From: Veillonella sp. VA142 | GTDB lineage: Bacteria > Bacillota > Negativicutes > Veillonellales > Veillonellaceae | Assembly: GCF_003992135.1 (NCBI RefSeq) | Contig: NZ_RQVN01000002.1 | Coordinates: 62,001 to 126,000, forward strand | Reading direction: 5' to 3' | DNA length: 64,000 nt | Shown here: piece after piece, positions 9,646 to 55,336 of the stretch | Numbering within the stretch: position 1 is the stretch's first letter | How the letters are laid out: the number at the start of each line of letters is the position of its first letter | Notes under the pieces: model-generated | The model's input: the letters and a program-made list of their open reading frames with translations, nothing else | Database searches by the model: none | What the model was told of the DNA's origin: nothing | Translations under genes and position numbers: made by a program

Positions 9646-9689
9646 GACATGTAGTGATTTTAAACTAAGTATTATATGTATGATACAAG

Positions 9690-9825
9690 TCTCATCAAGA
9701 GTAGTGGAGGGAGAGGCCCTTTGAAGCTACAGCAACCATTCCTTAGGGGAGAAGGTGCTAAATCCAACGATCTTTGATCGGAAGATGGGGATATGATTCC
9801 TCATCTTGGGATGAGGAATTTTTTT
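9690..9825 (+). ncRNA. SAM-I (S-box) riboswitch with terminator
   Basis: The leader contains the S-box core: the ATCAAGAG...GTGGAGGGA segment (9694-9713), GCCCT..GAAGC and CAGCAACC (9716-9737), then GGTGCTAAATCCA (9744-9756). P1 pairs TCTCATC (9690-9696) with GATGGGGA (9784-9791). The same GATGGGGA strand can pair instead with TCCTCATC (9798-9805) as antiterminator. The terminator stem is 9796-9805 with 9810-9819, plus a T tract to 9825. By analogy with the family, SAM binding favours P1 and hence termination, lowering metK expression when SAM is plentiful. Confidence 0.95.
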
Positions 9826-53023: not shown

Positions 53024-53471
53024 TCGATACAAACAGCTACGATCTATGGCGATTGATAAATTAAAATCTTCAGTGAAAGTAGAAGTAAATGGAGAGGGTC
53101 CTTTAGAGGACTCTCTTATGCTTGCTTATATTGGAGATGGTGTATATACCTTATTTATCAGAAATCGTGTAGTAGAAACAGGCATAACAAAAACACAAAT
53201 ACTTCATGATGTAGTGACGTCATTTATCAATGCAAAAGCACAGGCGAAAGTATTACAGGCATTAGAGCCAACTCTGACAGAGGAAGAGTTATTAGTGGCA
53301 AAACGGGCTCGCAATAGTAATGTACATGTACCCAAAAGTGCCAGTGTACAGGAATACCGCATGAGTACAGCCTTTGAGGCGCTGTTGGGGTATACCTATC
53401 GCAAGGGAGATGAAGAGAGGCTTACTACTCTCATGGAATTCGCTTTTGCTGAAACGTTGTCACGTATGTAG
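53013..53471 (+). CDS. mrnC: Mini-ribonuclease III
   Basis: Matures 23S rRNA ends. It is an RNase III catalytic domain without a dsRNA-binding domain: EDSLMLAYIGDGVYTLFIRN carries the catalytic Asp, and the dimer-forming helix region (SASVQEYRMSTAFEALLGY) carries the catalytic Glu. 152 aa from GTG 53013, preceded by GGTGG; an ATG at 53046 is the alternative and would still keep the domain. It overlaps the end of cysS by 11 bases. Confidence 0.9.
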   Translation: MNFNRYKQLRSMAIDKLKSSVKVEVNGEGPLEDSLMLAYIGDGVYTLFIRNRVVETGITKTQILHDVVTSFINAKAQAKVLQALEPTLTEEELLVAKRARNSNVHVPKSASVQEYRMSTAFEALLGYTYRKGDEERLTTLMEFAFAETLSRM

Positions 53472-53480
53472 CATGAATAT

Positions 53481-53700
53481 AAATACGCCATAGGCTTCCA
53501 TCAATTATTTTGTATTGAAGTCTGTGGTGTTTTCTTAATCTTTGGAATAGGAGAGCACGGCATATTCCTTCAGAAACGGTATTTCATAATGTTTCTTCAG
53601 GAACACGCCGTGCTCTTCTAGGTCTTCGGCTAATTATCAGAAAGCCACAGACTTCTTATAGCAGATACAATATATCTTTATGGAAGTCTATGGTGTATTT
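53481..53700. repeat. Long imperfect palindrome (about 220 bp)
   Basis: The two halves are inverted copies with scattered mismatches and small indels: AAATACGCCATAGGCTTCCA at 53481 against the reverse complement of the segment ending at 53700, GAAGTCTGTGG (53517-53527) against CCACAGACTTC (53645-53655), GAGCACGGC (53553-53561) against GCCGTGCTC (53607-53615), and AGAAAC (53572-53577) against GTTTCT (53591-53596). The loop is about 13 bases. The whole region would fold into one hairpin about 100 bp long as DNA cruciform or RNA. No ORF, no transposase and no clear target-site duplication are seen. It could be a MITE, a structured RNA or a long terminator for the upstream operon. Confidence 0.8.
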
Positions 53701-53753
53701 CTCTAAACGTATATAGGGGACAACGTTTCAGCGGGTGGTGCTCATGTCTTATT

Positions 53754-53782
53754 TTGGGATTGTTCTCTTTTAATGGTATAAT
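53754..53782 (+). promoter_or_regulatory. Sigma-A promoter for rlmB
   Basis: TTGGGA (53754-53759), a 17-bp spacer and TATAAT (53777-53782), with an extended TGG just before the -10. Between the palindrome and this promoter is a small inverted pair (AAACGT 53705-53710, ACGTTT 53723-53728). Start expected near 53789, leaving a leader of about 115 bases without a recognised motif. Confidence 0.7.
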
Positions 53783-53902: not shown

Positions 53903-54622
53903 ATGGATACGTTTATTGTAGGTCGTAATGCTGTGCGTGAAGCGCTGAAGTCGGATCGAGGGATTCATCGTATTTTGGTGGTGGAAGGGAAGCAAGGTGG
54001 TTCGCTTTCAGATATATTGGGTTTGGCAAAGTCTAAGGGTATTGAGGTTCGTCGTGTGAAGGAACGGGACTTACAGAAATATCCTAGTGATGTGCCGAAT
54101 CAAGGTGTGGTAGCCTTGGTGAATGCTGTGAAGTTCCAAGAGTTACAAGATGTGTTGCTGGCATGTACGGAAGAGCATCCGTTGTTAATTTTAACGGATG
54201 GTGTGGAAGATCCTCATAATATGGGGGCCATCATTCGTACGGCAGAGTGTGTTGGTGCTACGGCTGTATTGATTCCCAAACGTCATAATGCGCCTATTAA
54301 TGCGACGGTAAGTAAAACCTCTGCAGGGGCTGTAGAATCGATTCCTTTGGTGCAAATTGGTAATGTAGCACAGACCATTGAGCAATTAAAAAGTCAAGGA
54401 TTCTGGGTGATGGGTGCTCATATGGATGGGACTGTGATGTATGATGTCAATATGACAGGTCCTATTGTATTGGTCATTGGTAATGAGGGAAAAGGTCTAA
54501 GTCGATTGACAAAGGAATTGTGTGATGTATTGGTAACGATTCCTATGTTTGGAACCATTAACTCATTAAATGCATCGGTAGCAGCAGCGGTCCTTTTATA
54601 TGAAGCGAGACGTCAACGATAA
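53903..54622 (+). CDS. rlmB: 23S rRNA (guanosine2251-2'-O)-methyltransferase RlmB
   Basis: SPOUT-family methyltransferase of the TrmH/RlmB group. N-terminal RNA-binding domain starts FIVGRNAVREAL; the SPOUT motifs are DGVEDPHNMGAIIRTAE, VIGNEGKGLS and IPMFGTINSLNASVAAA. 239 aa from ATG 53903 (GAGG upstream), preferring it over TTG 53882. rae1 follows after 10 bases. Confidence 0.93.
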   Translation: MDTFIVGRNAVREALKSDRGIHRILVVEGKQGGSLSDILGLAKSKGIEVRRVKERDLQKYPSDVPNQGVVALVNAVKFQELQDVLLACTEEHPLLILTDGVEDPHNMGAIIRTAECVGATAVLIPKRHNAPINATVSKTSAGAVESIPLVQIGNVAQTIEQLKSQGFWVMGAHMDGTVMYDVNMTGPIVLVIGNEGKGLSRLTKELCDVLVTIPMFGTINSLNASVAAAVLLYEARRQR

Positions 54623-55283: not shown

Positions 55284-55336
55284 AAAAAAGAGGGTTAACT
55301 AAGAGAAATAGTATTTCTCCTTGTTAACCCTCTTTT
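55284..55336. terminator. Bidirectional terminator between rae1 and rpsT
   Basis: AAAAGAGGGTTAAC pairs with GTTAACCCTCTTTT, with further inner pairing of GAAAT and ATTTC. It has an A run on one side and a T run on the other, so it can stop transcripts from both the rae1 and rpsT directions. The gap from 55170 to here has no recognised feature. Confidence 0.9.

Follow-up and report, generated by a model that had tools for sequence, protein, structure and literature searches.

A palindrome between mrnC and rlmB

In Veillonella sp. VA142, the co-directional genes mrnC and rlmB lie on a 64,000-nt stretch of contig NZ_RQVN01000002.1 (hereafter, the window), with an imperfect palindrome between them and no ORF of at least 60 aa in the gap. 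The upstream gene is probably mrnC (encoding Mini-III), a name that follows the original prediction and our own judgement: Pfam gives its protein an RNase III domain and nothing beyond, and no NCBIfam model matched it. The features of the locus are as follows.

53046..53471, + strand: upstream gene, putative mrnC, encoding a stand-alone RNase III domain protein (ORF, Pfam)
53448..53732, + strand: whole palindrome, a local element with nested arms round a core (arm pairing, RNA fold)
53448..53470, + strand: outermost helix, left arm, inside the final mrnC codons and stop (arm pairing)
53481..53700, + strand: outer arm pair, the extent first proposed (arm pairing)
53517..53655, + strand: inner arm pair, matching the family arms GTAGCCTGTGGCG / CGCCACAAGGCTAC (arm pairing, consensus)
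53552..53619, + strand: core hairpin (GAGCACGG ... CCGTGCTC), 68 bp, the dispersed repeat common to other copies (genome matches)
53574..53594, + strand: near-invariant tip AAACGGTATTTCATAATGTTT (pattern counts, core alignment)
53710..53732, + strand: outermost helix, right arm, which complements the end of mrnC (arm pairing, score 16)
53754..53782, + strand: promoter-like site (TTGGGA, spacing of 17, TATAAT, with TG before it) between palindrome and rlmB (scan)
53903..54622, + strand: downstream gene rlmB (ORF, RlmB match)

The original prediction placed here a 220-bp imperfect palindrome whose halves align as inverted copies over nearly their whole length. The palindrome is real and longer than 53481-53700, spanning 285 bp (53448-53732), with its left arm entering the end of mrnC. 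The inverted match of the halves holds for the outer arm pair (53481-53504/53677-53700; 88% complementary), the inner arm pair (53517-53539/53633-53655; 78%) and the core arms (53548-53582/53586-53620; 80%), and continues into an outermost helix (53448-53470/53710-53732; 87%) whose left arm is formed by the last codons and the stop of mrnC. It contains the longest of the three short-range inverted repeats of at least 25 nt in the window. A 25-nt, perfect-looking hairpin (92%) at 55286-55336 lies between two convergent genes; one strand of it ends in T and starts with A, and it looks like an ordinary two-way intrinsic terminator.

When folded as RNA, 53450-53730 reached a minimum free energy of -121.5 kcal/mol, as compared with -58.8 (sd 4.8) in 200 shuffled sequences (z = -13.0), none of which folded as well; the opposite strand of the palindrome gave a z of -12.2. 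At the gathering score, an Rfam scan of the whole window assigned no family to the palindrome, its sole match being a SAM riboswitch elsewhere (9689-9791, + strand; 84 bits), and Rfam matches over elements in four other loci were far below that score. Promoter-like matches were not in excess (3 found, 3.4 expected from shuffles).

The core hairpin belongs to a repeat family restricted to the genus

We searched the same genome using a 301-bp region as the query and found at least 56 matches at E ≤ 1 and at least 49 at E ≤ 0.01, counts that are possibly low, with 40 of 48 candidates scored. Most of these cover the core only (query positions ~113-180, corresponding to 53552-53619 of the window). 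All six Veillonella genomes examined (G000 to G005) match the query, with 19-52 matches each. The 21-base tip, allowing at most one mismatch, occurs 41, 39, 30, 6, 43 and 37 times in G000 to G005, respectively, and is absent from 22/22 other genomes of the same bacterial family, with reversed-pattern controls also at 0; a right-arm pattern gave the same split (6/28 genomes). Among GTDB species genomes, the exact tip was found in 92 stretches, all from Veillonella sp. 3310, 3891, VA137, VA139 or CHU740. A generic tip, CAAAC-N12-17-GTTTGYTC, occurs 45, 66, 42, 49, 52 and 50 times in G000 to G005 (controls, 1-2) and 0-3 times in the 22 other genomes (controls, 0-4). Among the matches listed, the generic tips read mostly TGATCCTACGGTAG in G003 and mainly TGATACAGTGGTTAG and GGTATTTCATAAT in G001.

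Searches of plasmids and phages with the window region, and of IMG/VR with the tip, gave no match; a 16-base arm pattern (CGCCACAAGGCTNCTAC) is found exactly in two IMG/VR contigs (L176:1421-1437 and L177:1091-1107), either by chance or as a real copy. The best-ranked matches listed in our literature searches included no report of this repeat in Veillonella, and the available part of the genome announcement of Veillonella sp. Va142 (PMC6430328) has no word beginning with "repeat". The palindrome between mrnC and rlmB is a copy of a new, genus-restricted family of small non-coding palindromic repeats, which are short, non-coding and dispersed in many copies, as are MITEs.

Aligning 177 copies produced a consensus of ~205 bp, itself an imperfect palindrome, that starts with TAaatCGTCaCTTGTtacGCTATGtAGCc, carries the core GAGCACGG...AAACGGTATTTCATAATGTTT...CCGTGCTC and ends with GCTACTACGCgTAACtGCGTTCCTcAGGG. 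Its two halves match as inverted copies over almost the full length, akin to the terminal inverted repeats of MITEs, and its extreme ends pair poorly. Tandem units also exist, for example 2.9 units of 147 bp at 98%.

The differences between the two halves had been described as compensating-looking, and the family covaries accordingly. In 62 cores, hand-chosen for variety from 159 distinct ones (one of the 62 being interrupted), the 24 core pairs were formed in 97.4% of cells as compared with 82.9% in shuffles, and 18 of the 24 pairs changed on both sides, although these counts are not of independent events because paralogues and orthologues are mixed. The outer core helix shows two-sided changes at all ten of its pairs, and four AAAC/GTTT pairs hardly vary; stem changes are compensated, and the tip they surround is near-invariant. 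The repeat thus exists in many copies, is found throughout the genus genomes and covaries, contrary to a single, unconserved sequence free of covariation.

Some copies (L003, L007, L038, L047) carry a second arm type (GTCACGTTCA ... TGAACGTGAC) round the core, inside an outer GAGCACGG stem, and the mrnC hairpins of G001, G003, G004 and G005 use this arm type as well. At three other loci (L010, L021, L029), the right arm of the element breaks off into a common sequence beginning GGCTCTTTGTCAAATG, which looks like the end of an insertion sequence, possibly of the ISL3 type.

Elements follow stop codons on the strand of the gene

The core hairpin occurs after many unrelated genes. Of the copies in the six genomes, we placed 188 distinct ones (orthologous sites included), 180 of which have an upstream ORF of at least 80 aa. 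This ORF is on the strand of the element in 157/180 copies and on the other strand in 23/180. For the 157 same-strand copies, the distance from the stop codon to the tip has a median of 81 nt and 10th and 25th percentiles of 64 and 73 nt, so that in many copies the element begins at or near the upstream stop codon; the larger distances include tandem copies. We further counted strands in the named loci of at least 6 kb, setting apart 33 edge cases, 6 elements inside ORFs, 10 between convergent genes and 9 between divergent ones. Between co-directional genes, 82/86 elements lie on the strand of the genes. Where the co-directional genes oppose the local majority, 13/15 elements are still on the genes' strand, indicating that the strand of the element tracks the gene and not the direction of most genes nearby, and weakening replication direction as the cause of the bias.

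Akin to pneumococcal SPRITE elements, these hairpins near the 3' ends of coding sequences have a T-rich tract behind them. Over the first 20 nt beyond the right stem, T makes up 53% of the bases, as compared with 30% in 20-mers drawn at random from these loci, and 132 of 165 copies have at least five T in eight positions; stem ends were set here by a fixed offset, and some of the T could pair with A in the left arm. Gene ends with an element had canonical terminators outside the core in 20/64 cases, and those without one in 50/167; the core itself passed the canonical terminator test in 14/64, and the scan called no terminator at the window copy. Position, strand, T-rich tract and retention together suggest a terminator-like or 3'-end-protecting role. 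The earlier proposal of a very long terminator is thus plausible as far as gene strand, stop codons and the T-rich tract are concerned, but the window copy is no textbook terminator and canonical terminators show no excess.

Nesting within tips and the history of gene ends

Certain tips are interrupted directly after ...ATG, and it is to these that our count of nested insertions was limited. All 14 continue with the left end of the element at the same base; a separate pattern for insertion in the opposite orientation at such tips found 0 cases. By eye, a short TG(T) repeat would fit the nested junctions. The flanks of the copies are repetitive, and we found neither a filled/empty pair at the strain level nor a firm target duplication. 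Some sites have outer arms specific to the locus (groups 12 and 31; mrnC). In group 27 one outer arm encloses different cores, in group 31 a hairpin lies within another hairpin, and in group 34 one site has no hairpin in another genome (L142).

In sister genera of the same family, rlmB starts -8 to +38 nt from the mrnC stop in 10/11 loci; at the eleventh (L163), the motif search did not locate an rlmB start. The gap measures 431 (G000), 716 (G002), 658 (G003), 667 (G004) and 730 (G005) bases, and in these five genus genomes contains between one and three tips that can be recognised. In G001, mrnC is followed by hairpins, but a motif search of the next 6.7 kb detected no rlmB. Hairpins therefore occur after mrnC in all six genus genomes, as they do at two further gene ends (L184-L189 and L190-L195); a third (L178, L179) has a hairpin in the two genomes with a clear orthologue. 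At mrnC and these three gene ends the hairpin persists across species and the tips differ, a comparison that gives no unbiased estimate of conservation because the genes were chosen for carrying the element in at least one genome. The dozens of genome matches, the nested insertions and the near absence of the gap in sister genera all support the MITE-like element suggested at the outset.

At mrnC, the outermost right arm complements the native coding end of the gene with a score of 16, which none of 37 other right flanks reached. Across 38 loci, the corresponding mean score was 8.87 as compared with 8.42 (permutation p = 0.04), a signal carried by mrnC, L091 and, weakly, L075; right arms are therefore not generally templated from the coding end of the host gene. 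At mrnC, this arm may have arisen by local template switching; alternatively, the element may have retained a target stem at its ends.

Search for a mobilising enzyme

The Y1_Tnp domain (PF01797) of RAYT transposases was found in 0/6 genus genomes by a search that was positive in 5/14 control genomes; the RAYT that accompanies REP elements is thus lacking from these genomes. IS110 was found in 0/6 genus genomes and reverse transcriptase (RVT_1) in 1/6. Among the ORFs listed between elements, none was a clear transposase partner.

The sole transposase-like genes seen beside the arrays, lying between hairpin copies, are of the Rpn family (recombination-promoting nuclease/putative transposase; TIGR01784):

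L095:5440-6243, - strand: Rpn-family gene (TIGR01784 scan)
L054:1890-2783, - strand: Rpn-family gene (TIGR01784 scan)
L141:2451-3242, - strand: Rpn-family gene (similarity)
L102:5598-6389, + strand: Rpn-family gene (similarity)

A hairpin lies within 140 nt of the stop in 2/10 related ORFs, which makes no case for the Rpn nuclease as partner. The hairpin arrays of several genomes also include a CptIN-family type III toxin gene (L004:657-1139, - strand; NF047359, 206.5 bits against a cut-off of 90), with relatives at L042:656-1138, L076:5521-6003 and L101:3974-4456; the NF047359 scan covered L004 only.

Interpretation and alternatives

Taken together, the palindrome probably belongs to a genus-specific family of palindromic repeats that are non-coding and mobile-like and are perhaps kept as terminator-like hairpins at gene 3' ends. 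Both the mechanism of mobility and the role at transcript ends are what we infer from anatomy. In an ancestor of the genus, elements would have entered the mrnC-rlmB junction and pushed rlmB away. A hairpin-recognising activity would copy elements into hairpin tips and gene ends; once transcribed, the hairpin and the T-rich tract after the core would have a terminator-like or 3'-end-protecting function, and this would account for the position, strand and retention of the copies. More speculatively, the element could be a self-targeting "homing hairpin", non-coding and inserting site-specifically, in one orientation, into the apical loops of hairpins at gene 3' ends. The ends of dozens of genes would then be shared landing sites, their tips overwritten by a different module in each species, through an enzyme yet unrecognised; we regard this narrower proposal as doubtful.

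The repeats might instead have spread without transposition, by ordinary recombination and by template switching at replication-stalling hairpins (gene conversion and quasi-palindrome correction), which would make arms match and swap tips with no transposase. The lack of a partner enzyme among the three families searched favours this account, as do the single outer arm round different cores in group 27, the tandem 147-bp units matching at 98% and the complementarity of the right arm at mrnC to the mrnC coding end. That complementarity is not general, however, with few loci behind the permutation p of 0.04, and the 14/14 interrupted tips sharing one junction and one orientation suggest a site-specific reaction; we hold spread by these routes alone to be rather unlikely. 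It is still less probable that the palindrome is a very long intrinsic terminator of mrnC under selection, with the other copies a gene-end device spread by duplication and mobility past or incidental. Gene-strand orientation, the position at stop codons, the T-rich tract after the stem and the persistence of hairpins in 6/6 genomes at three gene ends would all fit such a device, but canonical terminators nearby are neither in excess nor in deficit, the scanner made no call at the window copy, and nested insertions and changing tips exceed what a terminator needs.

The proximity of long double-stranded RNA to an RNase III-type gene, and the hairpins after mrnC in 6/6 genus genomes, bring to mind a structured RNA or an RNase III/Mini-III target that regulates mrnC in cis. 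We consider this very improbable: the palindrome has no Rfam family at the gathering score and elements in four other loci score far below it, and the gap is missing from sister genera. The original prediction also put forward a structured RNA made from the mrnC operon; one specific to that operon finds no support, given the many unrelated genes that the hairpin follows. That prediction's set of options (MITE, terminator or structured RNA) is supported in part.

If the palindrome does belong to mobile-like repeats kept at gene ends, then genes, core ones such as mrnC among them, would harbour at their 3' ends a DNA family of this kind that changes transcript ends after having parted two ancestrally adjoining genes. 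The six species, with 42-66 generic tips in each genome, would offer a natural test of hairpins as terminators and of hairpin-into-hairpin copying.

Comparison with known repeat families

The family is best read as MITE/REP-like and, by description, comes closest to the pneumococcal SPRITE and BOX elements and to the enterococcal EFAR. In the parts of the source available, SPRITE elements of Streptococcus pneumoniae are hairpins with a U-rich tract (~48%) near the 3' ends of coding sequences, suggested to be co-opted as terminators, and BOX elements are modular, with tandem units (PMC3049150). The accessible text of a review adds that pneumococcal small repeat families insert into one another (PMC10969869). 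By description, the Veillonella repeats share with SPRITE and BOX the small intergenic hairpin, the T-rich tract, the position at CDS 3' ends and the tandem units. Unlike them, they form one end-to-end palindrome that starts at the stop codon and is bound to the gene strand, with covarying stems and a fixed tip, and nest at one base of their own tip.

REP super-families with GTAG or CGTC tags, as far as the excerpt seen describes them, are palindromic, 20-40 bp long and mostly downstream of coding regions, the GTAG REPs being linked to RAYT transposases (PMC3733652). The left end of the Veillonella repeat reads CGTC, and GTAG further in, akin to these REPs and to BIMEs, whereas its ~205-bp consensus is far from 20-40 bp and Y1_Tnp is found in 0/6 genomes. 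The same excerpt names the EFAR elements of enterococci as MITEs (PMC3733652). EFAR, from another genus, may be likened by description to the Veillonella family. In the latter, insertion into tips of its own kind is seen, and some sites have locus-specific outer arms. EFAR is reportedly palindromic, ~170 bp long and modular, and is said to integrate into stem-loops, with parts of the target stems kept at its ends; we know of no stop-codon start or tip-specific nesting for it.

Mobile hairpins with no known enzyme have also been proposed in fungal mitochondria, in the form of short double hairpins. Unlike these elements of organelle DNA, the Veillonella repeat is one long nested hairpin. The mitochondrial double-hairpin elements are named in the portion of PMC5910586 available. 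Set beside all of these, the Veillonella family presents an unusual mix: a start at the stop codon, orientation with the gene strand, covarying stems round a fixed tip, and insertion of elements into tips of their own family at a single base.
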